Source: a virus. From it: a stretch of DNA of 43,175 nucleotides. Both the position numbers and the translations under genes were made by a program. Location: IMG/VR virus record IMGVR_UViG_3300031598_000007, positions 1 through 43,175 of that record; one strand, written 5' to 3'. Within the stretch, counting starts at the first letter, position 1. The number at the start of each line of letters is the position of its first letter. Of the stretch, positions 4,114 to 39,184 are shown in pieces. Below the pieces are notes generated by a model. The model did no database searches. It was not told where the DNA came from and saw nothing but the letters and a program-made list of their open reading frames with translations.

Positions 4114-7100
4114 TTACTTATTCCTAAACATTTTATATTTACCTACGAGGTAACAGATGGGTTCTAGTATAGATCGGTATACACGTCCTAGAGTATCTCG
4201 TTTCTTACCTTGCATCTCCGCACGTAAGTCTGCAGTACGGTGTCTAGCAATATTTTCTAGGATAGTTCTAACAAACTTGTTATTATTTTTATACGCTATA
4301 TCAACAAGTGGTTGGAATAATATATGATAACCTACTTCGTGTGCCTTTGTCAAGCTCTTTTCTGAATAAGATAACCAAATAGCTTGACGATATGAGCCAA
4401 AGCCATATGAATTATTCATAGCGGTACATACAATTTTACCGCCGCCATCACCTGAGCCACCACCACCAGCTTCAGAATTACCATAACTACTACCTTGTCC
4501 AGCCTTTGCTTTAGACTTAGCGGGAGCATTAAAGTTATCTTTTTGTCTATCGGCATAGGTAGTGTTAAATTCTTTTGATATAGAAGGGGCAAAAGTTGTA
4601 CCTTCATTATCATCTCGGTCATTATTATCTCGTCTATTAGCAGGATCAAAGGTACGTGTTAATACATTAGTTCCCGGTTGATTTGTCCATGTTGCACCTG
4701 CCATGTTTGGATCACCACCACTTGCGTCCGTTCCAAGTTTAGCTTTTGAACTTGTAGATAATTCACCTTTTCTGTCTGGTGTAACTGTAGTTTTTCTATT
4801 TGTACTAGCAATACTAATTGCATTACGATCATACTCACCAACTTCACGTTGTCTATAACTAAGACCAAACTTAATCATTTCAACCAGAGTAGGTTTATGG
4901 TATGCACCCTGCTCATCTATAAATACATTTTTACCTGTAGATGATCTAATTGCAAAACCATCTTTGTCTGACAAAACTCCTGTTGAAGTACCGTCGGAAA
5001 CTTGTCCTACTACATAGTTATTTACTGTTGTACCACCCTGCTTGCCTGCACTTTTATTGTCTTGCATTGCTCTACCTAAATTAGCATCAAGTAAATTATT
5101 CCATGCAGTACTCATAGTAGACTGACCCGCCTTATATGTTTTTACAGGTTCACGTTTTTTTACTATGCTATTATTAGTAATATCACTAGTAGCAGTGTCT
5201 GTAACGTTTGAAATTACATTGCTACTTAAGTCCTTTGGACGCAATGGTGGAATTGGTGAAGTTACATTTGATGAAGTAGTAGCCGCACCTACTAAATCTC
5301 TTTCCATGCTAATTGGCGATGGTGCAATATCTCTACCATAACCGTCGGTAGCTTTTCTAGGATCAACACTGACAGGTGCAATATCTCTACCATAACCGTC
5401 AGTAGCTTTTCTAGGATCAACACTGACAGGTGCAATATCTCTACCATAACCGTCAGTAGCTTTTCTAGGATCAACGGCAGGGGTTGTCATAGATTTTGGT
5501 GCAGTGTACTGCGATACATCTCTAGTTTCAGTAGGTAAAGCTGTCACTTGATTTTGTTCGGTTGGGTTTAATATACCTGCGTCTCTATTTTGTGGTAGCC
5601 CTAAACCTAAAACAGGATCACCAGCATTGTTATATTCTGGATAACTACCTACTGCACGGTATACACCGCTTTCATCTGGTTCAAAACTAAATTTTGGATA
5701 GTTATCATTTGTGCCTATTGTAGGGTCTGGTAATGTATTAAGTGCAGTAATTCTATCATTTACTACAGGTTGCATAAAAGGTAATACACCAGTAGGGGTT
5801 GTATAATCTGCAGGGCGAGTGTTGTCTAAAGGTGGAGCACGAACTACAGGAGTATCTAATGTTACAACAGATTTACCAATCTCTGGGTCTTCACGATTTA
5901 CTATAGGAGGAAGGTTCATAGATGATGGTGCTGTATAGGTAGAAGTATTTATAGGCATAGGGGTATTTTGATCTGTCCCGTAAAAACTATCGCGAGTCTG
6001 TACTGCCGTAGGAGACATGTCCCTAAACGTTCGGTTTGGTAAGTTTGGTAAGGGTGCAGTTGCAGGTGCACCTAAATCTCTTTCCATGTTAATTGTAGAA
6101 GTGGGTGTTTGTGAAAAACTAGCTTCTCTTCTAGGATCAATTGTAGAAGTGGGTGTTTGTGAAAAACTAGCTTCTCTTCTAGGATCAATTGTAGAAGTGG
6201 GTGTTTGTGAAAGACTAGCTTCTCTTCTAGGATTAAATGATGAAGTACTAGGTGTTTGTGAAAGACTAGCCTCTCTAGCATCACTAAAACTAGGATTTAC
6301 CTCTGCGGATAATGTAGCCGTACCATCCTCTTTAATAGCTACAGGATTATCTACCTTTTTTAGTTGCTCCGCAACCTTTGTAATTTGTTTTGTTAACTCT
6401 GGGGCAACGCCAAACTTGCTAGTAACTTTATCTACTATACCAGCTAATAGACCACCAGATTGTTCTACAACTTTTGCTCTAATATCTAATAAACTCTGTT
6501 GCTCTACTTTAGAAAATTTACCTGACGTTATGTACTTATCTAAACGGGCAACATTTTTTCTATCTTGTGCTTCCATAAGAGCCATGCCAACAAATCCTAT
6601 GGGTCCAAACATTCCCATTACTACCTTAGCAATAGTACGATTAAAACCTACTGTAGTATTCATGTAACTAGAATACTCTGCCGCTGTCATAGCGTCAAAT
6701 TCAGCTTCTGTAGGTGGTGGTGGGTCTTGGTTCATTCTATCTTCCCTAACACTATCTTCTTCTCTAGTGTCAGCAATAATATCCTCAACAACTGGAGGAA
6801 CGGGTGTAGCATCCGGTGGTGTAGCCGTGTCGTCTGAATTGTATAAATCATATCCTACAGGAATAGGCAAGGACGGTACACCATTTATGAAAGGAATCAT
6901 AAGAACGCTACCAGCGGCATTACGATACTCACGCATTTCCATATACTTATCGCCCATTAAATCTTTAAATGTTGCCAATGGTCTGTCTTGAGGTGGTATA
7001 GGTTGTACAGGTGTAAGAGGACGAGTAGAAGAAGTGTTTACAGAACGGTCAGTCGATGCACTTGTAGGCAAGGTTCTAGTTACACCAGATGGTTGCATTG

Positions 7101-16432: not shown

Positions 16433-16448
16433 AGTCCAACATTGGACT
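16433..16448. repeat. Palindrome copy 1 (AGTCCAACATTGGACT)
   Basis: The only variant copy: one central base differs from the perfect palindrome AGTCCAACGTTGGACT. It abuts the promoter cassette at 16450, so a protein bound here could touch RNA polymerase. Confidence 0.85.
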
Positions 16449-16449
16449 A

Positions 16450-16504
16450 CCTACTACTACGTAGTAAAATAGTGCTTGACCCCATCAAATTTTTCTGATC
16501 TAAG
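16450..16504 (+). promoter_or_regulatory. Early rightward promoter, cassette copy 1
   Basis: Bases 16450-16480 are identical to 18488-18518. The cassette contains the palindrome TACTACGTAGTA (16455-16466) and ends in the -35 box TTGAC (16476). After a 17-base spacer comes a weak -10 (TCTAAG, 16499-16504) preceded by TGA. TGATCT and GCATCGAAA are shared at nearly the same offset in copy 2. A weak -10 plus an upstream palindrome suggests activator dependence. Confidence 0.75.
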
Positions 16505-16559
16505 TTATGGCATCGAAACGGCAATCATGCTTCTCGAAATTCATTTTAGGAAAACTCTT

Positions 16560-17168
16560 ATGACAAATTCAGCAAACACAGATACAAACACAGCGGTTCT
16601 TAACACTCTTGAATTGATCGGAGCTGACATAGCACGACAATGGAAGTCTATAACCAAAGGTCAAGTATCTCGTTTCAATCAGTACACTAAGGCTGATGGC
16701 TTTGATATGAAACTTGGTAACCTTATGGTTACTCTTTCAGAGGAAGGTTCAGGACGTATCAAGTCAAGTAGACTTGTAGAATGTGGCATCAACATAGTTG
16801 ATAAGAGACGACGAGCTGAGGCTATGTGGTTCGTTAATAACGAAGTTGATTGCAGGGAATTCATTGCTAAAAGCAAAAGAGGTTACACATCACTTACATC
16901 ATTGCAACTTGCAATGTCAAAGGTTGACAATGATTCTGCACCAAACCCAGACAAGCCAGAGGCTTCAGGAAAGCTTGAGCCAGCTCACAACTTTATTGAT
17001 GCAACACCAGAAACTAGCGAAGCTAAAGTTTACACAAAAGAGACAATCTTTAGAGACTTGATTGCAATCTGTAAAGAAAGTGATGTAGACATTATGGATA
17101 TAGCAGAAATGCTTCTAAGAGAAGCTGATGCGATTGAGGTAGATACTCCTGATGCTATAGCGGCATAA
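16560..17168 (+). CDS. First rightward early protein, unknown function
   Basis: 202 residues from the ATG at 16560. An in-frame start farther upstream would lie inside the promoter, so this start is preferred; TAGGAAAA lies upstream. Sequence: MTNSANTDTNTAVLNTLELI, then SRLVECGINIVDKRRRAEAM and a Pro/Ala/Ser linker, then an acidic helical end (ESDVDIMDIAEMLLREADAI). No family recognised. As the first gene after the control region it could be a regulator or host takeover protein, but no clear helix-turn-helix is visible. Confidence 0.75.
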   Translation: MTNSANTDTNTAVLNTLELIGADIARQWKSITKGQVSRFNQYTKADGFDMKLGNLMVTLSEEGSGRIKSSRLVECGINIVDKRRRAEAMWFVNNEVDCREFIAKSKRGYTSLTSLQLAMSKVDNDSAPNPDKPEASGKLEPAHNFIDATPETSEAKVYTKETIFRDLIAICKESDVDIMDIAEMLLREADAIEVDTPDAIAA

Positions 17169-17173
17169 CATAA

Positions 17174-17230
17174 GTAACCTTATAGGTTACATTAGGCTTA
17201 CTCCCTAGCTTAGTGTAACTTTATAAGTTA
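17174..17230. repeat. Two related hairpins with a TTATA loop
   Basis: GTAACC-TTATA-GGTTAC (17174-17190) and TAACT-TTATA-AGTTA (17216-17230). Sequences after each are also related (ATTAGGCTTACTCCC versus CTTAG, palindrome, TTACTTCC). The first looks like a degenerate copy of the second module that lacks the 16-bp palindrome. Confidence 0.65.
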
Positions 17231-17234
17231 ACTT

Positions 17235-17250
17235 AGTCCAACGTTGGACT
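17235..17250. repeat. Palindrome copy 2 with RBS cassette
   Basis: Perfect AGTCCAACGTTGGACT followed by TACTTCCTGAAAGGAAA and an ATG at 17274. TTCC and GGAA in that leader can pair across TGAAA and would cover the Shine-Dalgarno. The same cassette precedes the next two genes. Confidence 0.9.
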
Positions 17251-17273
17251 TACTTCCTGAAAGGAAAAATAAA

Positions 17274-17444
17274 ATGCATAAGGTTTTAAATAAATTTATG
17301 ATTGATCCAACAGAAAAAAATGCTGTAAGATTAATATCTTATATTAATAAGCATCCATTCTCAATGTTAACGGCTTCTACTTATGTCAATGAGATTATCG
17401 GACAAGCCAGAGAAATTGCAGGTTGGAGAATCTACAAAGCTTAA
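17274..17444 (+). CDS. Small early protein, unknown function
   Basis: 56 residues: MHKVLNKFMIDPTEKNAVRL, ISYINKHPFSMLTASTYVNE, IIGQAREIAGWRIYKA. The ATG at 17274 follows GAAAGGAAAAATAAA. An upstream TTG lies inside the palindrome and is unlikely. Helical, basic. One of three consecutive tiny genes with identical 36-bp leaders. Confidence 0.7.
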   Translation: MHKVLNKFMIDPTEKNAVRLISYINKHPFSMLTASTYVNEIIGQAREIAGWRIYKA

Positions 17445-17467
17445 ATGAAATAAATGATTTAACAACT

Positions 17468-17483
17468 AGTCCAACGTTGGACT
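17468..17483. repeat. Palindrome copy 3 with RBS cassette
   Basis: Perfect AGTCCAACGTTGGACT followed by TACTTCCTGAAAGGAAA and an ATG at 17505. Leader identical to copy 2 up to the start codon region. Confidence 0.9.
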
Positions 17484-17504
17484 TACTTCCTGAAAGGAAA
17501 AACA

Positions 17505-17696
17505 ATGCTAATCGAACGTACTTCAAGACTATCAGGTGATGTACATGTCATGGATATTGATGTGTTACCTATACAAATAACGTTGTGGGAACAGGGTGAA
17601 CTTGTTCAAAATGCTATGCCTGAGCTATCTGCAGATGAACGTGAGTTTATCATGACTGGTATAACTCCCACAGAGTGGGATGAATTTTTTAACTAG
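17505..17696 (+). CDS. Small acidic early protein, unknown function
   Basis: 63 residues: MLIERTSRLSGDVHVMDIDV, LPIQITLWEQGELVQNAMPE, LSADEREFIMTGITPTEWDE-FFN. Predicted beta strands then an acidic helix. The phrase 'LSADEREFIMTGITPTEWDEFF' resembles small proteins in marine phages and plasmids that I recognise only as hypothetical. Its stop overlaps the next palindrome by two bases. Confidence 0.75.
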   Translation: MLIERTSRLSGDVHVMDIDVLPIQITLWEQGELVQNAMPELSADEREFIMTGITPTEWDEFFN

Positions 17697-17710
17697 TCCA
17701 ACGTTGGACT
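17695..17710. repeat. Palindrome copy 4 with RBS cassette
   Basis: Perfect AGTCCAACGTTGGACT, starting in the stop codon of the preceding gene, followed by TACTTCCTGAAAGGAAA and an ATG at 17733. Confidence 0.9.
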
Positions 17711-17732
17711 TACTTCCTGAAAGGAAATTATT

Positions 17733-17852
17733 ATGTCACGAATTAAATCTGAAACGAAACGTGCGGAGCTATGGAAAGTAATAGCTTTGGTTCAACAAGC
17801 TATCTTTGGTTTACTCATTGGTATTGCCATTGGCTATGGCTTGTTCATATGA
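17733..17852 (+). CDS. Tiny single-TM protein
   Basis: 39 residues: MSRIKSETKRAELWKVIALV then QQAIFGLLIGIAIGYGLFI. A basic N-terminus precedes one hydrophobic helix with GxxxG-like spacing. Good leader (AAGGAAATTATT). Overlaps the next gene by ATGA. Likely an inner-membrane peptide; role unknown. Confidence 0.65.
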   Translation: MSRIKSETKRAELWKVIALVQQAIFGLLIGIAIGYGLFI

Positions 17853-18043
17853 AGTATACAACACACACTACCAAGGCACATGTAATGCCTAAGCCTAGCC
17901 GTGTGGATCGTATTCAAAGATTACAGGCACGTCTTAAGTTACAGCGTGAATGTCTGTCACCTGTTGTTGATGTGTCATATGACAAGCGAAATAACGTAGT
18001 TGAATTTACTTCCGATACAGGTTGGAAAACCTACAAAACTTAA
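17849..18043 (+). CDS. Small basic protein, unknown function
   Basis: 64 residues from the ATG at 17849, which overlaps the previous stop (ATGA): MKYTTHTTKAHVMPKPSRVD, RIQRLQARLKLQRECLSPVV, then DVSYDKRNNVVEFTSDTGWK. The coupling decides the start. Basic helix followed by a beta hairpin. No family recognised. Confidence 0.65.
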   Translation: MKYTTHTTKAHVMPKPSRVDRIQRLQARLKLQRECLSPVVDVSYDKRNNVVEFTSDTGWKTYKT

Positions 18044-18067
18044 CACTAACAATAGGAAAATAAACAA

Positions 18068-18313
18068 ATGTATACATACAGTTTAAAGATAACTCGAAAC
18101 GAAACATGGCGACCCCAAATAACAGTGCCAGAGCAAGACCGCAAAGCCTTTGCTAATATGTCAGATGATCGGGCAAATGAGTACTTAACATGGCTTGCTT
18201 ACGAAAATTCTGATTATGTTTTTGATGACTACTACCATTCATTCACGTATGAGAGTGATACAGATATTGAGGACTTTCAAATAGTAACCCAAACAGGAGA
18301 AAAACAATCATGA
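18068..18313 (+). CDS. Small acidic protein, unknown function
   Basis: 81 residues, rich in Asp, Glu and Tyr: MYTYSLKITRNETWRPQITV, MSDDRANEYLTWLAYENSDY, VFDDYYHSFTYESDTDIEDF. Beta start, then an acidic aromatic stretch. Stop overlaps the next ATG. No family recognised; acidic aromatic composition would suit a DNA mimic, which is speculation. Confidence 0.65.
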   Translation: MYTYSLKITRNETWRPQITVPEQDRKAFANMSDDRANEYLTWLAYENSDYVFDDYYHSFTYESDTDIEDFQIVTQTGEKQS

Positions 18314-18486
18314 TAGCTATATGTTATGACGAATGTGGGACTGAGGTATCAATAGAGGTTAAAAACCTAGATGAGATACCGCCTGAATATAAATTTAGAT
18401 ACTCTCAAATGCATACTGAGCGAGAGTTGGCAGAGTGGCGACTATCTATGCAAGACGATCACGATGACTATGACTATGATTATTAA
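18310..18486 (+). CDS. Tiny acidic protein, unknown function
   Basis: 58 residues: MIAICYDECGTEVSIEVKNL, DEIPPEYKFRYSQMHTEREL, AEWRLSMQDDHDDYDYDY. ATGA overlap with the previous stop. The C-terminus is almost pure Asp/Tyr. Ends just before promoter cassette 2. No family recognised. Confidence 0.6.
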   Translation: MIAICYDECGTEVSIEVKNLDEIPPEYKFRYSQMHTERELAEWRLSMQDDHDDYDYDY

Positions 18487-18487
18487 C

Positions 18488-18542
18488 CCTACTACTACGT
18501 AGTAAAATAGTGCTTGACAGCAGGTTAGTTATCTGATCTGTT
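18488..18542 (+). promoter_or_regulatory. Early rightward promoter, cassette copy 2
   Basis: Bases 18488-18518 repeat 16450-16480 exactly, including the palindrome TACTACGTAGTA (18493-18504) and TTGACA (18514-18519). Seventeen bases further is TCTGTT, preceded by TGA. TGATCT and GCATCGAAA are shared with copy 1. The 31-base identity in a non-coding gap between two unrelated genes is strong evidence for function. Confidence 0.75.
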
Positions 18543-18568
18543 GTAAGCATCGAAAGTGTTCATCGTTA

Positions 18569-18584
18569 AGTCCAACGTTGGACT
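18569..18584. repeat. Palindrome copy 5
   Basis: Perfect AGTCCAACGTTGGACT, 50 bases downstream of the second promoter's -35 box, so it probably lies just after the transcription start. It precedes a different leader (AGTGGAAAAGGAAATACACA). Confidence 0.9.
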
Positions 18585-18604
18585 AGTGGAAAAGGAAATA
18601 CACA

Positions 18605-19015
18605 ATGTCTACATATAAAGAAAACTACCTTGTATATCAATGTATGTTGAGTGCAGGACAACATAAGTATGTAAATGATAATCCTGATAGTAGTATGGCT
18701 AATGCCTACTTTGGAATTACGTCATTGTTTGGTGGTGACGCTGAGCATTTAATGATTAATGCTTTGGAATATGGTATATATAAACCTACTATGTTGATGT
18801 CTATCTATGAAGCACATAGTCGTGGCACATATGAAAAACTATGGGCAGAAGGTAACGACGAAGGTAATTTTACAGTAGAACGTAAAGACTTGCGAATGCA
18901 TCCTAGCTTGTCCGTTGGAGATGTAATAGTACGTCTCACAACTGGCGATGTCCATATCGTATTACCCGTTGGCTTTATGCAAGTTAACGTGGAACTATCA
19001 CTACAATCAATCTAA
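18605..19015 (+). CDS. Early protein, possible YodL-like C-terminus
   Basis: 136 residues. The C-terminal stretch HPSLSVGDVIVRLTTGDVHI is similar in style to the 'HSLSVGDVV' strand of YodL-type phage/plasmid proteins. The N-terminal half (MSTYKENYLVYQCMLSAGQH, AEHLMINALEYGIYKPTMLM) is helical and unfamiliar. First gene of the second early transcript. The family link is tentative. Confidence 0.65.
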   Translation: MSTYKENYLVYQCMLSAGQHKYVNDNPDSSMANAYFGITSLFGGDAEHLMINALEYGIYKPTMLMSIYEAHSRGTYEKLWAEGNDEGNFTVERKDLRMHPSLSVGDVIVRLTTGDVHIVLPVGFMQVNVELSLQSI

Positions 19016-19037
19016 TATCTTGAAAGGATATAATACT

Positions 19038-19373
19038 ATGACTAATATTTTCAAAAAGCCTCTCGTAAAAACTACTAACCCTGAGTTGTATGCAAAGCAT
19101 ACTTACCATATGTCAAAGGCTTATAAGCTGACATATAACTACTCTGTAGTAGACGATTATATTTTACAGAATTGGAACGATACCACTGTGAAACAGATGG
19201 CTGTTGATCTTAATGAGTATCCACGGCGTGTCTCTTATAGAGTAGCTGTTCTTAGGTCGGTTGGTTTAATTCGGAGTAAGCACAACTTAGAGCGTCGTAA
19301 TCTAATGAAACAGTACAGAGTACTAATGACTTGGGTTGATGCCATTAAAAATGAATTGAAAGACGTGGTGTAA
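19038..19373 (+). CDS. Probable helix-turn-helix DNA-binding protein
   Basis: 111 residues from the ATG at 19038, after GAAAGGATATAATACT. Residues about 35-75 (DDYILQNWNDTTVKQMAVDL, NEYPRRVSYRVAVLRSVGLI) read as a winged-helix/HTH: a 'TVKQMAVDLNEYPRRVSYRVAVLRSVGLI' pattern with a basic recognition helix. It is the best candidate in the early region for the protein that reads one of the repeated palindromes. That link is inference. Confidence 0.72.
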   Translation: MTNIFKKPLVKTTNPELYAKHTYHMSKAYKLTYNYSVVDDYILQNWNDTTVKQMAVDLNEYPRRVSYRVAVLRSVGLIRSKHNLERRNLMKQYRVLMTWVDAIKNELKDVV

Positions 19374-19529
19374 ATGAAAAAGAAACCTGTGGTCATAAAC
19401 CCTGTGGCAAAAGCTATGTTACAAAACAGGCAATCCCCACAGGTTGTCCCACCTAAGAAGGGTGGCAAAGCTAAACGTAATCGTAAGGAGAATAATATCA
19501 ATGCAATACGAGATGCGAAACTTTATTAA
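19374..19529 (+). CDS. Tiny basic protein, unknown function
   Basis: 51 residues: MKKKPVVINPVAKAMLQNRQ, SPQVVPPKKGGKAKRNRKEN, NINAIRDAKLY. Starts on the base after the preceding stop (TAAATG). The 'KKKPVV.NPVAKAL..NR...QVV' opening is one I know from small marine-phage proteins. Probably nucleic-acid binding; unproven. Confidence 0.65.
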   Translation: MKKKPVVINPVAKAMLQNRQSPQVVPPKKGGKAKRNRKENNINAIRDAKLY

Positions 19530-19668
19530 GTTTTCGAAGAAAGTTAAGTCCAACGTTGGACTAACGAAAAAGTATTCCGATGAATGGAAACGCAAACGTA
19601 AGATACAACGTCAAGCTAAACTAAAATTACAATTAGGAACAATCAATTATAAAAGTAAGGTAGGATAA
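19501..19668 (+). CDS. Tiny basic protein carrying a palindrome in its coding sequence
   Basis: 55 residues: MQYEMRNFIKFSKKVKSNVG, LTKKYSDEWKRKRKIQRQAK, LKLQLGTINYKSKVG. ATG at 19501 is preceded by GGAGAATAATATCA. It overlaps the previous gene by 29 bases. Palindrome copy 6 lies inside and encodes KSNVGLT. Function unknown. Confidence 0.6.
   Translation: MQYEMRNFIKFSKKVKSNVGLTKKYSDEWKRKRKIQRQAKLKLQLGTINYKSKVG
19547..19562. repeat. Palindrome copy 6, within a coding sequence
   Basis: Perfect AGTCCAACGTTGGACT read in frame as part of KSNVGLT in the 55-residue gene. There is no start codon just downstream, so its role here cannot be as an RBS leader. Confidence 0.9.
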
Positions 19669-19669
19669 C

Positions 19670-20296
19670 ATGTATGTAAGAGACGTAGCAGAAATTAAAG
19701 CATTCGTTAAGTGGCGTGGCACTGATGCCTTTGTAAACACTGGCTTGTTTGTATTACTAACAATACAAGCTGGCTTGTCTACTGTTAAGGGTAGCATGAT
19801 TAAGGTAGAATCTGATGGTGTTGATGCCAACTGTTTGTGGGGTAAGAAGGGTGATGGTTACACATATCTACAAGATAATGCTGATTACTTGTATGGCAAG
19901 ATGTATGACATAGCTGACAAGAAAGGTTATGAGAGTGTGGAAGCCTGCTCCGATGTAGTGCAACTGTTTATGCAAGTACCAAACTTGGGTATGGTCAAGG
20001 CATCTTTCCTTGCACAATGCTTAGGCTTTAACGTAGCTTGTATTGATAGTCACAATATCACACGATTGGGTTTAAATCCTAACGTAGTTAAGACACCACC
20101 TGCAACGATGAAACCTGCAACTGTTCGTAAGAAGGTTGAGGCATACGTTACATTGACACAAGAGGAGGGTACAAGATACTGGTGGGACACATGGTGTGAC
20201 TACGTAGCTGGAAACCGCGCCAATCGTGCCTTAGATACTGGTGATGTTGTATCTAGGTTTCACGTTGAGTGTATAACACATGGATTTGAAGCATGA
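19670..20296 (+). CDS. Putative helix-hairpin-helix (DNA glycosylase-like) protein
   Basis: 208 residues. Residues 103-130 (VPNLGMVKASFLAQCLGF, then NVACIDSHNITRLGL) match the plan of an HhH-GPD fold: a hairpin with a 'PxLGxxKA' turn followed by a conserved Asp (D126) in IDSHN, like the 'VDTHV' of base-excision glycosylases. The N-terminus (FVLLTIQAGLSTVKGS) and C-terminus (RYWWDTWCDYVAGNRANRAL) are unfamiliar. No Fe-S cysteines are seen at the end. DNA repair or modification is plausible; inference. Confidence 0.6.
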   Translation: MYVRDVAEIKAFVKWRGTDAFVNTGLFVLLTIQAGLSTVKGSMIKVESDGVDANCLWGKKGDGYTYLQDNADYLYGKMYDIADKKGYESVEACSDVVQLFMQVPNLGMVKASFLAQCLGFNVACIDSHNITRLGLNPNVVKTPPATMKPATVRKKVEAYVTLTQEEGTRYWWDTWCDYVAGNRANRALDTGDVVSRFHVECITHGFEA

Positions 20297-20562
20297 AAAT
20301 ATTAAGTGAACACGAGTTGTGCGATTTTATTAATGACACCTTGGGTGCATGGGTAGATGAGGAAATGAATGAGAACCCTATTGATGAGGGTAACATATCA
20401 AGGGCACAACGTTCCGCTGAGACGTGGGACAGTTTCATTGCTGACTTAGTGCTATGGATGCACGTTAAGTATGAGAGCAACCCCGATGGGATGTTTTCAA
20501 AGGCTGTTGATAAGTCCAACGTTGGACTAACAATAGAAGATTTTATATTAGGAGAAGATTAG
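20293..20562 (+). CDS. Small acidic protein carrying a palindrome
   Basis: 89 residues, MKILSEHELCDFINDTLGAW, WDSFIADLVLWMHVKYESNP, ending VGLTIEDFILGED. ATGA overlap with the previous gene. Palindrome copy 7 encodes the same KSNVGLT as in copy 6, at its C-terminus. Function unknown. Confidence 0.65.
   Translation: MKILSEHELCDFINDTLGAWVDEEMNENPIDEGNISRAQRSAETWDSFIADLVLWMHVKYESNPDGMFSKAVDKSNVGLTIEDFILGED
20513..20528. repeat. Palindrome copy 7, within a coding sequence
   Basis: Perfect AGTCCAACGTTGGACT, in frame as KSNVGLT near the end of the 89-residue gene, 36 bases upstream of the next ATG at 20564. Last copy in the window. Confidence 0.9.
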
Positions 20563-21100: not shown

Positions 21101-21713
21101 AGCAATACATATACAAAGTATATTTCAAATGATACTAAAGTTATTAGAACAAAAAGATATGGAAATAGATGAGGCTTTTACTGAGGGTGTAGAATTTGAT
21201 GCACAAAACCATGAAGATAAACGCTTTGCGTTAGCCGAAAGGGATAGGGTGCTTATTGATAAAGGCTACACGAAAGGTTTGCGTGAAGGTATTGGGTTTG
21301 GATATGATAAAGGCTACGATATAGGGAAAATTGCGCATCAAACCAACCGCACCGCCTCTTACGATGCAGGCTGGGAAGAAGGCTGTGAAGAAGGCTATGA
21401 AGAAGGCTACGATGCAGGCTGGTGTGAAGGCTATGATAGAGGCCACGCTAATGGTGAAGAAGAGCGATTGGAATTAGCAGATGCTTTAAGTAAAGCAGAG
21501 GAAAATGACTATGAAGCAGGCTGGGAAGAAGGCTGTGAAGAAGGCCACGATGCAGGCTGTAAAGAAGGCTATGAAGAAGGTCACGATGCAGGCTGGGATG
21601 AAGGCTATGATAAAGGCCACGATAATGGGGAAGATAGAGGCTTTAATAATGCCTGTCTTGCTATATCTACCTTTGCCTTAAATAAAGCAGAGGAAAATGA
21701 CGATGAAGAATGA
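21093..21713 (+). CDS. Glycine-every-fourth-residue (GX3) repeat protein
   Basis: 206 residues, start after AGGAGAATAACA. Gly occurs at every fourth position in three runs: six (58-78), eight (93-121) and eleven (143-183), with spacers such as W-E-E, Y-D-A, H-D-K. This is the GX3 pattern of Yae1/Lto1 ('deca-GX3') and of the FliH-type GxxxG helices, which pack helix to helix or bind partners. It is strongly acidic. DNA repeats (GGCTATGAAGAAGGC-like units) indicate recent expansion. Role unknown; the next gene encodes a membrane peptide. Confidence 0.75.
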   Translation: MTKAIHIQSIFQMILKLLEQKDMEIDEAFTEGVEFDAQNHEDKRFALAERDRVLIDKGYTKGLREGIGFGYDKGYDIGKIAHQTNRTASYDAGWEEGCEEGYEEGYDAGWCEGYDRGHANGEEERLELADALSKAEENDYEAGWEEGCEEGHDAGCKEGYEEGHDAGWDEGYDKGHDNGEDRGFNNACLAISTFALNKAEENDDEE

Positions 21714-23111: not shown

Positions 23112-23275
23112 CTATTTACACGTTAAAAAACAGTACTGATGGGGAGGTGTGGGAAGCCACACTGCCCCAGATACTACACGAAATAAATGATGATCGTATT
23201 GGTGAATGGGAAGAATATGACGAAACAGATTGGCAAGAGGGTCTGCTACACTTCACCACATGGGAGATTGTATGA
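23108..23275 (+). CDS. Small acidic protein before the integrase
   Basis: 55 residues: MTIYTLKNSTDGEVWEATLP, QILHEINDDRIGEWEEYDET, DWQEGLLHFTTWEIV. Coupled on both sides by ATGA overlaps (23108 and 23272). Very acidic and rich in Trp. It could modulate the integrase it is coupled to; unproven. No family recognised. Confidence 0.65.
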   Translation: MTIYTLKNSTDGEVWEATLPQILHEINDDRIGEWEEYDETDWQEGLLHFTTWEIV

Positions 23276-24375
23276 GCACCTTACCACGATATGTACAGCA
23301 ACGTGTGTCACCTTCGGGTGACATCACCTATAGATTTAACCCGCCGCAATCTTTTATTGATGAAGACGTAGTAAAACGTGAAGAGTTAGGCTCTGACCTC
23401 AAGTTGGTGCGAAAGAATGTCAAGGTATACAACGACGCAATTGACGCATACCGCAAGGCATGTGCGTTAGTTATACAAATAAAGCCCAACAGTAAGGTGA
23501 CAGATTTGATTAACTATTACTATTCCTCTAATGATTTCAACATGTTACGGACTAGTACTAAGGTGGATTACAGATACTTCTTAACGATCTTACACCAGAC
23601 AATGGGTACTCGTAAATATGAGTTGGTTACATCTAAGATAGCTAAGCAGGCATATGAGGACTGGGTTAAGCGTGGCATAAGTTTTGCTAACCACGCCGCT
23701 ACCTGTGCCAGTAGGGTATACAACTACGCTATACAAATGGAACACACATCACAGAACCCTTGGGCTAACATCAAACGTAAGACATCACCGCAACGTAAGG
23801 TAGTGTGGCAACATGATGATGTTGTCAGGTTTCTTGATAAAGCTTACAGCGATTACGAATACAGAAACGTAGGCTTGATAGTACAGATGGCATACGAGTG
23901 GTGTCAACGATTAGGTGACATGCGTACATTACAATGGGAGAACATAGACCTACGTAATCGTAAGCTGACATTGGAGCAGAGTAAACGTAGGGCTGATGTT
24001 ACGCTACCTATATCAGAGGAGCTATGTATAATGTTAGATGCACAACGTAATGACTTCGGCTTTCAAGAGTATGTAGCACCCCACCCAAGGCCAATGAATG
24101 GTACGTACCAACCCTATGCAATGGAACGTCTATCTAAGGTAGGCCGTAGGGTAATGAGGTTGGCTAAGTTGCCAGAGGAATTACGTATGATGGACTTACG
24201 ACGAACAGGTGTGACACAGATGATAGAAGCTGACGTATCTATAGGTCAGATCATGTCAGTTACTGGTCATGGTCATGTGTCTTCTGTGAAACCCTATATA
24301 AAAAATACGTATGCCTCTGCAAATAATGCCTTGACACAGAGAAACGTTAGTGTACAATCGAGTACTGACGAGTAA
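23272..24375 (+). CDS. int: Tyrosine recombinase / integrase
   Basis: 367 residues; the ATG at 23272 overlaps the preceding TGA, which fixes the start. N-terminal SAM-like core-binding domain (about 75-165: STKVDYRYFLTILHQTMGTR). The catalytic domain carries R213 (CQRLGDMRTLQW), K238 (EQSKRRADVTLP), R310 (MMDLRRTGVTQM, with the usual box II His replaced by Met), H333 (TGHGH) and Y342 (VKPYI). It should insert phage DNA into a host site. No excisionase, repressor or att site was found nearby. Confidence 0.88.
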   Translation: MSTLPRYVQQRVSPSGDITYRFNPPQSFIDEDVVKREELGSDLKLVRKNVKVYNDAIDAYRKACALVIQIKPNSKVTDLINYYYSSNDFNMLRTSTKVDYRYFLTILHQTMGTRKYELVTSKIAKQAYEDWVKRGISFANHAATCASRVYNYAIQMEHTSQNPWANIKRKTSPQRKVVWQHDDVVRFLDKAYSDYEYRNVGLIVQMAYEWCQRLGDMRTLQWENIDLRNRKLTLEQSKRRADVTLPISEELCIMLDAQRNDFGFQEYVAPHPRPMNGTYQPYAMERLSKVGRRVMRLAKLPEELRMMDLRRTGVTQMIEADVSIGQIMSVTGHGHVSSVKPYIKNTYASANNALTQRNVSVQSSTDE

Positions 24376-27865: not shown

Positions 27866-29914
27866 ATGAAACACCTAACACTGGACGTAGAGAATACAAC
27901 AGTCAAACGTAATGGTAAGTTACACCTTGATCCATTTGAGCCAGAGAATACATTGGTACAAGTAGGTATGCTAGATGATCTTGGAAACGAAAACATTATA
28001 ACTTTCGATCACTCAGAGCAACAACCTACTACGGCGGGGCGGCAGATAGTGCAAGATGCATTAGACGCTACCCCGCTACTTATTGCCCACAACGCACCTC
28101 ACGATCTACTGTGGTTGTGGGAGTCAGGCTTTGTATATGATGGCGCTGTGTATGATACACTGTTAGGTGAGTACGTACTACAACGTGGTCAGAAGCAACC
28201 CCTATCACTTGATGCCTGTGCAGAACGATATGACTTAGACACAAAGAAACAAGATACATTAAAGGAGTACTTTAAGAATGGATATTCCACACGTGATATT
28301 CCTCATGCTGAACTATCGGAGTATCTATCACACGATCTTCACGCAACTCAAGAATTATACTACTGTTTGCAGACACAGTACGAGGAATGCAAATCACTAA
28401 TACCTACAATAGACTTGACTAATCAATTAGCTGTACACCTAGCACGTATATATCAACGTGGCTTTGCAGTTGATATGGATGCACTCAATGCAGTTCGTGT
28501 TGAGTTCGAACAAGAGCGTAACCTACTGATGATGGCGCTTGAAGAACATGCCAGTGACCTAATGGGTGACAGGCCAATAAACCTCAACAGCCCAGAGCAA
28601 TTGTCTTGGGTTATATATAGTCGTAAGCCGAAGGACAAGAAGATGTGGGCAGACCTGTTCGATGAACGAATGCCTGACGCTGAGTATCGACGTAACGTAA
28701 ATGCATACAGTGACAAATTGTACAAGCAGAAGGCACATCAGTGTCGGGAATGCAAGGGCAGTGGTCAGGTATGGAAAGAAAAGAAAGATGGTACACCTTA
28801 TGCTAGATCAAATAAATGCAATACTTGCTCCGCTAGTGGATATACTTTTACTGATAACATTAGCGCAGTGGCTGGCCTAAAGTTCTCACCCCCTAATTCC
28901 AAGTGGATTAGTGCCAACGGTTTTGGTACTGGCAAAGACAATCTTATATTCCTTGAGGGCATTGCACGTTCCAAGGGTATGAAGGATGCAGAGCTGTTCT
29001 TACAGAATGTACGTAGGTTGTCAGCCGTTGAGACATACCTCAGTAGTTTTGTTGAGGGCATAGCTACTCACGTCAAGCCCGATGGGTTGCTACATGTACG
29101 ACTACTACAACACCGCACTGGTACTGGACGGTTATCTGGTGCTGATCCTAACATGCAGAACATGCCACGTGGTGGTACGTTCCCAGTTAAGAAGGTGTTT
29201 GTGTCACGATGGAAGGGCGGTAAAATTTGCGAGGCGGATTTTGCACAACTTGAATTTCGAGTTGCGGCGTTCCTGTCACAAGACATGACTGCAATCAACG
29301 AGGTCATTGATGACTTTGATGTACATGCTTATACTGCTAAAGTTATATCTGATGCAGGCCAACCTATATCCAGACAGGAAGCAAAGTCACACACTTTCGC
29401 ACCCCTTTATGGCGCGTCGGGGTTCGGTAGATCACCAGCAGAAGCATCGTACTACAAGCAGTTCACGACTAAGTACAGTGGTGTAGCTAAGTGGCATGAG
29501 AGCCTAGCCAAAGAAGCCTTGAACACTGGCATGATAACTACACCATCAGGACGTGAGTTTGCATTCCCTGATGTGGTAAGACGACGATTTGGTGGGGTTA
29601 CATTCTTCACACAGATAAAGAATTATCCTGTCCAATCGTTTGCAACCGCAGACATAGTACCTATATCACTAATCTATATTGATAAGTTACTGTCTGCTAA
29701 CAAGCTACGTAGTTGCGTAGTAAATAGTGTACACGATTCAGTTGTAATCGACATACACCCTGATGAAGAGGAACAAGTACTAAAAGTAATACAAGCCACC
29801 AACGATAAGTTAGTACCAATCATCAATCGTAAGTGGGGTGTTGACTTCAATATACCCCTACTATTAGAGGCAAAGATTGGCCCAAACTGGCTTGACACAA
29901 AAGACGTAGTATGA
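27866..29914 (+). CDS. Family A DNA polymerase with 3'-5' exonuclease
   Basis: 682 residues. Exonuclease: D7/E9 (LTLDVENT), LIAHNAPHD (N76, D80), YLSHDLHAT (D157). Polymerase: motif A EADFAQLEFR (D458), motif B REAK-type QEAKSHTFAPLYG (K507, F511, Y515), motif C VVNSVHDSVV (H623/D624). Residues 293-321 carry CRECKGSG and CNTCSASG, a DnaJ-like zinc ribbon inserted between the exonuclease and palm (thumb region). Phe sits at the E. coli 762-equivalent position. It is the replicative polymerase. Confidence 0.95.
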   Translation: MKHLTLDVENTTVKRNGKLHLDPFEPENTLVQVGMLDDLGNENIITFDHSEQQPTTAGRQIVQDALDATPLLIAHNAPHDLLWLWESGFVYDGAVYDTLLGEYVLQRGQKQPLSLDACAERYDLDTKKQDTLKEYFKNGYSTRDIPHAELSEYLSHDLHATQELYYCLQTQYEECKSLIPTIDLTNQLAVHLARIYQRGFAVDMDALNAVRVEFEQERNLLMMALEEHASDLMGDRPINLNSPEQLSWVIYSRKPKDKKMWADLFDERMPDAEYRRNVNAYSDKLYKQKAHQCRECKGSGQVWKEKKDGTPYARSNKCNTCSASGYTFTDNISAVAGLKFSPPNSKWISANGFGTGKDNLIFLEGIARSKGMKDAELFLQNVRRLSAVETYLSSFVEGIATHVKPDGLLHVRLLQHRTGTGRLSGADPNMQNMPRGGTFPVKKVFVSRWKGGKICEADFAQLEFRVAAFLSQDMTAINEVIDDFDVHAYTAKVISDAGQPISRQEAKSHTFAPLYGASGFGRSPAEASYYKQFTTKYSGVAKWHESLAKEALNTGMITTPSGREFAFPDVVRRRFGGVTFFTQIKNYPVQSFATADIVPISLIYIDKLLSANKLRSCVVNSVHDSVVIDIHPDEEEQVLKVIQATNDKLVPIINRKWGVDFNIPLLLEAKIGPNWLDTKDVV

Positions 29915-38700: not shown

Positions 38701-39184
38701 CTTTACGATCATAAATAGCAGTCATGTTTGCCTTACGAGATTTGACAAGTTCTACTTCAGTTGTTGTACCGTTTTCTTCATCAAGTTTTCTGGCTCGTTC
38801 TAGTGCTCGTTGGTATACTTCGTTATCTTCATCTCGTACACGCATAGGCTTTCCAAAAAGTCCTACTTTATCGTACTCATTATAATACTCTTCTTCTCCC
38901 TTACCTTCATCAATTTGTTTAAGTATGCGAGCATCCATTATAGACAACTCATCTTCCCAAGACAGCTCTACATCACTGGCTACAGGAACTACAGGCTCTT
39001 CGTCAATGACTACAGGTTCTTTGTCAATGACTACAGGTTCTTTGTCAATGACTACAGGTTCTTTGTCAATGACTACAGGTTCTTTGTCAATGACTACAGG
39101 TTTTTCGACAACTACAGTCCCTACATTACCGCTGTCTTTTTTCTTCATCTTTGCAAGACGTTGTTCATAAGTTAATGGTTCCAT
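35717..39184 (-). CDS. Large internal virion (ejection) protein
   Basis: 1155 residues. The N-terminus has a Val/Glu/Pro repeat (EPVVIDK five times) and then a long helical protein. A hydrophobic, Ala/Gly-rich stretch around residues 225-265 (MMATANFLPFVGAAIGIADL, AATAGISLVEVGASIFGGRA) could insert into membrane. The C-terminal third contains VIMPFPRFMFNSMELLGQYA. Size, composition and clustering with other virion genes fit a T7 gp16-type protein ejected with DNA. No lytic transglycosylase motif was seen. Confidence 0.7.
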   Translation of the reverse strand: MEPLTYEQRLAKMKKKDSGNVGTVVVEKPVVIDKEPVVIDKEPVVIDKEPVVIDKEPVVIDEEPVVPVASDVELSWEDELSIMDARILKQIDEGKGEEEYYNEYDKVGLFGKPMRVRDEDNEVYQRALERARKLDEENGTTTEVELVKSRKANMTAIYDRKVTNRAGDFKDAAIDVNNLLMSDNVLERTFAEGLLESGLDVDTISAMMATANFLPFVGAAIGIADLPQNYSSIKKDLANGNFKSAAATAGISLVEVGASIFGGRAVVKTAKNNLMEKNIKRASEGFIKSAGGADLAARQVAEVATENAAKVALDNRVLADRLIKEFEVKVGKTISVQDGKHLKIDEVKAREAGKETLEQITERDGDLFNLNLGEDTITSPILNPNKFNGIVAVASELEKKFPGSFDPDKTIIDNLLDLTISKKLDGQELINLLDDYGLNFEDYVLTIVGSGSEAGKVLNNLSQIRRLKPDAIMQIDKDAAKLAKDGEWRNRIMRVENIRRGGLVSQLATASRNLQSGAIRLPMESLGNVMDQAIYNMQYGTEGDKLFRMVDTVFSGEVWRDSFRGMKYVFSRPDIAKDYTDLIMRSPELAKQNSALLNNLNEIQKLSGRGKGGLEDKALSALEDAVDFLNTPNRWQEHLMRRGIFFSELQRLSKREFGIDLIDELQKGNLKGLLNDSSNVIKRGKNQRSFLSIVDDSVQKSLDITYAKQPDTEVFRSVSTFITRNGLTVIMPFPRFMFNSMELLGQYAAGASIPLTQKLSSIVTGGRVGGGPLTAKGRQRIQRNIQGFAAVGAAYLYRTSKDAPSKYNEVPVGDKAVLNTTATYPLAQYLYAGEAIKRLMDGTFFGTWFDPKEFVELFTGSNFRVGVGNSILEEIAELANATDLTAGETAGRLIGRPLGNYLSTWGVAFGQVIDAERATGVRGTKLKETAQDPTFSFADSLGKNLVQPLRNRGLITTPSQEATMPDKEYAGFYDGRERMYPGMKFLGLSMTTAPTEDKEYLGNFGIDWRILSSKSKVPSIKNYEIRMLNNFLPIIVELGQKQEDKLRLEYSEQSDTVQKEFTSNEYVSNKLRPLLKAQISKYKTKISSASKVKGDAYTRAMIEYRKTPREFRKLATTEFIKRGINRGNRVPDPLNADDLRELAIIGKAYKKAYSK
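38996..39100 (-). repeat. 21-bp tandem repeat (five copies) in the large virion gene
   Basis: Units start at 38996, 39017, 39038, 39059 and 39080, four of them identical. They encode EPVVIDK near the N-terminus. The identity suggests copy-number variation by slippage. Confidence 0.95.

Follow-up and report, generated by a model that had tools for sequence, protein, structure and literature searches.

The window described here, meaning the whole stretch of DNA that was analysed, is positions 1 to 43,175 of IMG/VR virus record IMGVR_UViG_3300031598_000007, which by DNA polymerase type and gene content is an HMO-2011-type marine podovirus. Its early-gene region carries a 16-letter palindrome, AGTCCAACGTTGGACT, which the original prediction placed exactly at 17235, 17468, 17695, 18569, 19547 and 20513 and, with one mismatch, at 16433. 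All of these copies are present, the one at 16433 with an AACATT centre, and the seven fall within a 4-kb early region, where they bracket the first early gene and then follow one another through the early operon for about 2.8 kb. The features concerned are as follows, with palindromes given without a strand.

16433–16448, no strand: palindrome 1, operator-like, with the AACATT centre, 5′ of a promoter-like element and of the first early gene that follows it; relatives have an equivalent upstream site.
16450–16504, plus strand: promoter-like element with a ACTACTACGTAGTA dyad (TTGACC-17-TCTAAG), by consensus only, kept by near relatives.
16560–17168, plus strand: first early gene, 202 amino acids, predicted operator-binding regulator from its co-occurrence with the palindromes, covariation and a structure model.
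16800–16814, plus strand: DKRRR motif, with PDQRR instead in two genome types that have CCCC..GGGG operators.
16896–16919, plus strand: codons for T113, L117 and S120, the putative specificity residues of the predicted recognition helix, from covariation.
17235–17250, no strand: palindrome 2, intergenic, directly 3′ of the first gene, with the next ATG 23 nucleotides (nt) on.
17468–17483, no strand: palindrome 3, intergenic, ahead of the Shine-Dalgarno sequence of a 63-amino-acid open reading frame (ORF).
17695–17710, no strand: palindrome 4, overlapping the stop codon of the 63-amino-acid ORF, ahead of the next gene's Shine-Dalgarno sequence.
18488–18542, plus strand: second copy of the promoter-like element at 16450 (TTGACA-17-TCTGTT).
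18569–18584, no strand: palindrome 5, between the second promoter-like element and a 136-amino-acid ORF.
19038–19373, plus strand: 111-amino-acid helix-turn-helix (HTH)-like protein, a candidate binder that is not supported.
19547–19562, no strand: palindrome 6, within the small ORF 19501–19668.
20513–20528, no strand: palindrome 7, within ORF 20293–20562.

The earlier observation that the palindrome is missing from the rest of the window also holds, as no further copy occurs outside the early region at up to two mismatches across the record, and loosening to three brings in only 14634, in a late-gene region. At this looser threshold 100 dinucleotide shuffles gave a mean of 0.09 matches, and none attained 8. 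When the early 5 kb was searched without bias for dyads, one dyad came up in seven copies, compared to a maximum of two in 200 Markov resamples. Four copies sit 36–39 nt 5′ of an ATG, and three of these are followed by TTACTTCCTGAAAGGAAA, which contains the ribosome-binding site; three copies in the window belong to a common 40-bp unit that includes the Shine-Dalgarno sequence. The two copies within small ORFs are each translated as KSNVGLT.

We collected 80 environmental loci by way of relatives of a 208-amino-acid early protein, and more by way of relatives of the first early protein. Sites matching GTCC-R-N4-Y-GGAC are found in 59 loci from the former search (60 genomes counting the window), typically with four to nine sites per relative, nearly all in the early region of genomes of ~55 kb. 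For instance, in 13 genomes of 54–57 kb, each with five to seven sites, hardly any site strays more than a few kb from the early region. Those that do are a GTCCAAGGTTGGAC match shared by several relatives, which lies several kb downstream, and isolated ones in CRP-345 and in a single environmental genome. Searching relatives had been proposed as a check on the palindromes, with random density or lack of conservation as the adverse outcome, and the comparison instead establishes that they are conserved and confined to the early region. Among cultured relatives, the unbiased dyad search of early regions recovers the motif in CRP-1, CRP-345 and HMO-2011, the last with five copies of AGTCCGACAGCGGACT, one of them inverted. 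Nine isolates (CRP-2, -3, -9, -207, -212, -235, -603 and -738, and HTVC033P) yielded nothing comparable when their early regions were searched in the same way, CRP-738 showing a single AT-rich dyad in two copies only.

The sites vary coherently by genome: one core and flank variant is common to the sites of a genome, and this variant differs between genomes, with AA..TT or GA..TC inside the core (A-type and G-type below) and three flank classes. A few sites depart from this pattern. One site in each of two genomes (L060:9792 and L061:9570) has the core and flanks seen in L051-like phages, the other sites of both genomes being A-type, and looks from its sequence as if it had been acquired with a gene cassette bearing a non-cognate operator. 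The upstream operator of L113 and L120 is A-type, identical to that of L107, within G-type genomes, which points to a recombination event between this operator and the first gene.

We think it very probable, from these comparisons, that the palindromes are operators of the first early gene product. The assignment is made because, across more than 100 related viral sequences, changes in the letters of the site go with changes in a single helix of this protein. The protein is present in palindrome genomes, including CRP-1, CRP-345 and HMO-2011, and was not detected in palindrome-less genomes. Conversely, 78 of the 80 loci retrieved by way of the first protein have the canonical core; of the other two, L175 has five copies of a CCCC variant, CCCCAACGTTGGGG, and L122 ends at a contig edge. 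On the same 36 taxa the flank class changes twice on the first-protein tree, the minimum for three classes, versus three to five times on the trees of seven other early genes. Many relatives also encode one site inside the linker of the first protein itself, where it reads S[ND]VG. In each of the 53 distinct cases Ser is encoded by TCC and Gly by GGA, compared to shares of 11% and 19% for these codons among the Ser and Gly codons of the gene, and selection therefore acts on the nucleotides (DNA or RNA sequence). The suggestion that the palindromes form a regulon of one dimeric regulator is thus strongly supported by comparison, and the regulator, probably a dimer, can be named as the first protein.

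The strongest alignment columns for the operator base at ±3 are residues 113, 117 and 120, with 119, all on the same face of a single predicted helix. K117 occurs in 17/17 G-type genomes, all but HMO-2011 having SLS-ALQ-K, and A-type genomes carry SLT-ALQ. One SLS-ALQ-R clade carries mixtures of A and G operators, and the only A-type genomes with SLS are members of this clade with few or no G sites (L010, L035, L037, L133 and L147). On a tree built without the helix columns under test, the operator base at ±3 changes about 12 times, which led us to reject an origin of the covariation in a single clade. S113 and K117 were concordant in 6.5–6.8 of seven supported independent pairs, with none opposed, and ranked first among 587 residue traits. 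When the columns of 28 other gene families were scanned, no other convincing operator-tracking residue was found; a clean N/D column in a small site-bearing ORF was discarded, being the palindrome's own translation. That one predicted helix of the first protein specifies the base at ±3 is part of the regulator reading and shares the high confidence we give to that reading as a whole.

The code can also be read in the direction of prediction. The helix of L178 was read first and foretold G-type operators on a CCCC background, and the five L178 sites then found were CCCCGATGTCGGGG. The L175 and L178 proteins differ at nine of 210 residues (five in the helix, one in a palindrome-translating codon and three in or near the linker), and their operators, CCCCAACGTTGGGG and CCCCGATGTCGGGG, differ only at ±3 and the centre. 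This natural pair makes the recognition code directly testable. For held-out contigs the operator type was predicted correctly in 29/29 cases, five of them G-type, many of the 29 being mutual near relatives. CCCC operators accompany PDQRR in place of DKRRR or DRRRR, in a single clade, and a second contact region at this motif is likely from the alignments.

An AlphaFold2 model of the first protein has an all-helical core at about residues 14–125, with mean pLDDT (predicted local distance difference test) above 90 over much of it, followed by a disordered linker and a C-terminal helical hairpin. Comparison with viral models gave a single convincing match, a 205-residue entry that we take to be the HMO-2011 homolog. 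Several points weigh against the first protein as a DNA-binding regulator of these sites. The protein and its core had no functional match in Pfam, PHROG, PDB-sequence or Foldseek searches, and the model resembles no solved DNA-binding fold, nor any solved structure. Many of the contigs are near relatives, so that sequence counts exceed independent events, which the tree-based and held-out tests correct in part. One non-cognate site is retained in a few genomes (L060, L061 and L113). Lastly, transcribed non-coding sites are polar at the centre (TG 95 : CA 9), compared to 22 : 23 for upstream sites, and non-coding sites outside ORFs end 15–24 nt ahead of a start codon in 172/195 cases. A plain symmetric DNA dimer does not explain this polarity and start-codon clustering, which call for either a polar block, as in phage L5, or some RNA recognition.

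Control by protein–RNA hairpin contacts has precedents in the MS2 coat protein and lambda N/nut. Here the palindrome would act in the transcript as a hairpin, GUCCR-AYGU-YGGAC, before the ribosome-binding site, bound by the first protein to control translation or elongation. The position of the non-coding sites and their polarity would both suit such a hairpin, as does the preference among asymmetric ±3 pairs for G..T over A..C (12:3), as G-U wobble predicts. However, A/T symmetry at positions 6 and 9 is kept in most sites though needless in an RNA loop, the sites 5′ of the promoter-like element are conserved and unpolarised, one of the five HMO-2011 sites is inverted, the conserved flanks of two classes do not pair, and coding sites are often distant from any start codon. 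We favour DNA as the target because positions 6 and 9 are symmetric yet would be unpaired in an RNA loop, sites 5′ of the promoter-like element are conserved and inverted copies exist, and we consider the RNA hairpin rather unlikely. A broader version, in which the first protein would found a fold class of its own among nucleic-acid regulators and recognise the palindrome in nascent mRNA, with or instead of DNA, so that one protein–hairpin code tunes the operon and incompatible codes define compatibility types of marine phages, we regard as unlikely.

Two further explanations fare worse. The 111-residue HTH protein was, with the 202-residue first protein, one of two candidate binders in the original prediction, and it is found in most palindrome loci scanned, in CRP-1 and in CRP-345, and in no palindrome-less locus. 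Yet no copy of it was detected in HMO-2011 despite the five exact sites there; none of its columns splits A-type from G-type operator genomes within flank classes, and its tree needs three to four flank-class changes versus two for the first protein. Co-occurrence and covariation thus leave the first protein as the better of the two candidates, and regulation by the HTH protein is very improbable. The repeats might instead be modules that move or recombine, at the boundaries of gene cassettes as with the T4-type promoter early stem-loop (PeSL) elements, and the 40-bp unit with its Shine-Dalgarno sequence and the seemingly cassette-borne sites of L060 and L061 would suit this. Passive units, however, are not expected to change bases coherently genome-wide, in step with the residues of one protein and even inside coding sequence. 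We rejected cassette boundaries as a full explanation, which has very little chance of being right; isolated cassette transfers are still visible.

For the first protein acting on DNA, the mechanism we envisage is that the protein, probably as a dimer, would bind each palindrome through its all-helical domain, with the helix around residues 111–125 reading the base at ±3. The protein would occupy a site 5′ of the promoter of its gene, another at that gene or immediately 3′ of it, and several more in the early operon; it would thereby curb its own production and block or silence downstream early genes in a stoperator-like manner. By analogy, autoregulation together with silencing of the early operon is the likely function. 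We infer that the protein binds DNA rather than RNA, that it dimerises, that it represses rather than activates, and that it is used in lysogeny or immunity.

The original likening to stoperators holds for how the system would work. As with the repressors of cluster A mycobacteriophages (L5 gp71, Bxb1 gp69), a single site is repeated many times, chiefly in narrow gaps between genes or overlapping gene ends (PMC3029335, PMC6550527, PMC9283540), with one consensus per genome that varies between relatives, recognition-helix residues that co-vary with site bases, and integrase-bearing phages. Cluster A sites are also oriented with transcription; here transcribed sites have a strong centre bias and upstream sites none, in a core that is itself symmetric, and this may be a comparable polarity. 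The likeness does not extend to membership of that family, as the sites here are few, palindromic and limited to the early region, and the first protein has no relation to the L5 repressor. Cluster A sites are 13 bp and asymmetric, compared to a palindromic core of 14–16 bp with polar flanks and centre here; there are 20–36 of them genome-wide rather than four to nine in the early region; and the L5 gp71-type repressor has an N-terminal HTH and a stoperator domain, whereas the first protein differs from it in both sequence and predicted fold. The cluster A system confers superinfection immunity and blocks elongation, and a comparable role here is plausible.

A similar picture emerges for KorB of plasmid RK2 (PMC11790492), where one element-encoded protein acts at several palindromic operators, some away from promoters, with control at a distance. 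In contrast to KorB, the first protein has no significant Pfam or PDB match to a ParB/KorB domain (one family member reached E=0.12, which is not significant). Lambda-type CI/Cro proteins share a presumed dimer on dyad-symmetric operators and likely autoregulation; here, by contrast, there is no divergent cI-cro pair, the operators are dispersed across about 3 kb rather than promoter-clustered, and the first protein has no CI/Cro HTH homology and no match to any repressor family.

The group to which the window belongs can be placed by two further genes.

23230–24375, plus strand: tyrosine integrase (PHROG 1, E=1.5e-33).
27866–29914, plus strand: DNA polymerase with a DnaJ-type CXXCXGXG insert, an HMO-2011-type marker.

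Two CXXCXGXG motifs in a partial DnaJ insert of the polymerase mark the HMO-2011-type group (PMC9038755). The polymerase of the window is 68% identical to that of HMO-2011 and retains the invariant C293/C296/G298/G300 and C318/C321/G325 pattern. The window also encodes primase, helicase and ribonucleotide reductase, and its integrase precedes primase and helicase, as in most of subgroup I, where the integrase lies upstream of the replication module. Gene order, polymerase type, integrase, first protein and palindromes are all common to HMO-2011, CRP-1, CRP-345 and the window (PMC9038755, PMC6918029).

An integrase is found in 51/51 palindrome genomes with the region visible, which fits a regulator of temperate phages, and an immunity role for the palindrome system is plausible on this ground. 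A simple equation with immunity is weakened by several results. No prophage carrying the first protein was found in a GTDB scan of about 85,000 species genomes, and a polymerase scan gave only phage-sized or short contigs of metagenome-assembled genomes (MAGs), with neither palindrome nor first protein in the DNA examined. CRP-3, the only relative for which integration has been shown (PMC6918029), lacks this kind of repeat over the first 9 kb, and several other integrase-bearing isolates are also without it. Separately, L180 and L184 (duplicates L181 and L185) are HMO-2011-type contigs of 55–63 kb binned in Flavobacteriales and Neomarinimicrobiota MAGs, probably wrongly.

HMO-2011-type phages rank with the most abundant phage groups in the sea, and these results point to an unrecognised control system, possibly one of immunity, within them. 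We found nothing on early-gene control or immunity groups in these phages, no description of the palindromes or of a role for the first protein in PMC9038755 or PMC6918029, and, in a library search, no relevant title on HMO-2011 palindromes. Since regulator, sites and specificity residues can all be named from the covariation, operators could be read from protein sequence and likely immunity types assigned in this way to metagenomic phages.

Other elements lie close to the palindromes. In the window an exact 31-bp repeat, CCTACTACTACGTAGTAAAATAGTGCTTGAC, at 16450–16480 and 18488–18518, kept in near relatives, is probably an early promoter by its sequence, and the dyad that it contains, TACTACGTAGTA, is possibly the site of a second regulator. 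Relatives of flank classes 2 and 3 have a conserved block of 83–98 nt between the upstream palindrome and the first gene (L013:8158-8243, L113:5782-5868, L132:5766-5848 and 14 others), which is not present in the window. In the alignment nine of 16 predicted pairs are maintained through changes on both sides, and the block looks like a structured RNA, with no Rfam match in the sequences searched. Relatives of the same classes also have a long near-perfect hairpin leader (CTATATTCTA..GTGAGAGATATAGG..CAGAATATAG) directly 5′ of the first gene's ribosome-binding site (L013:8271-8351 and equivalents). Elsewhere in the window, an array of 12-nt repeats at 21351–21658 lies in a 206-amino-acid ORF and encodes GYDAGWEEGCEEG-type peptide repeats, and in-frame tandem repeats of 21, 48 and 54 nt occur at 38967–39132, 6091–6297 and 5321–5482, respectively, in long leftward late genes.

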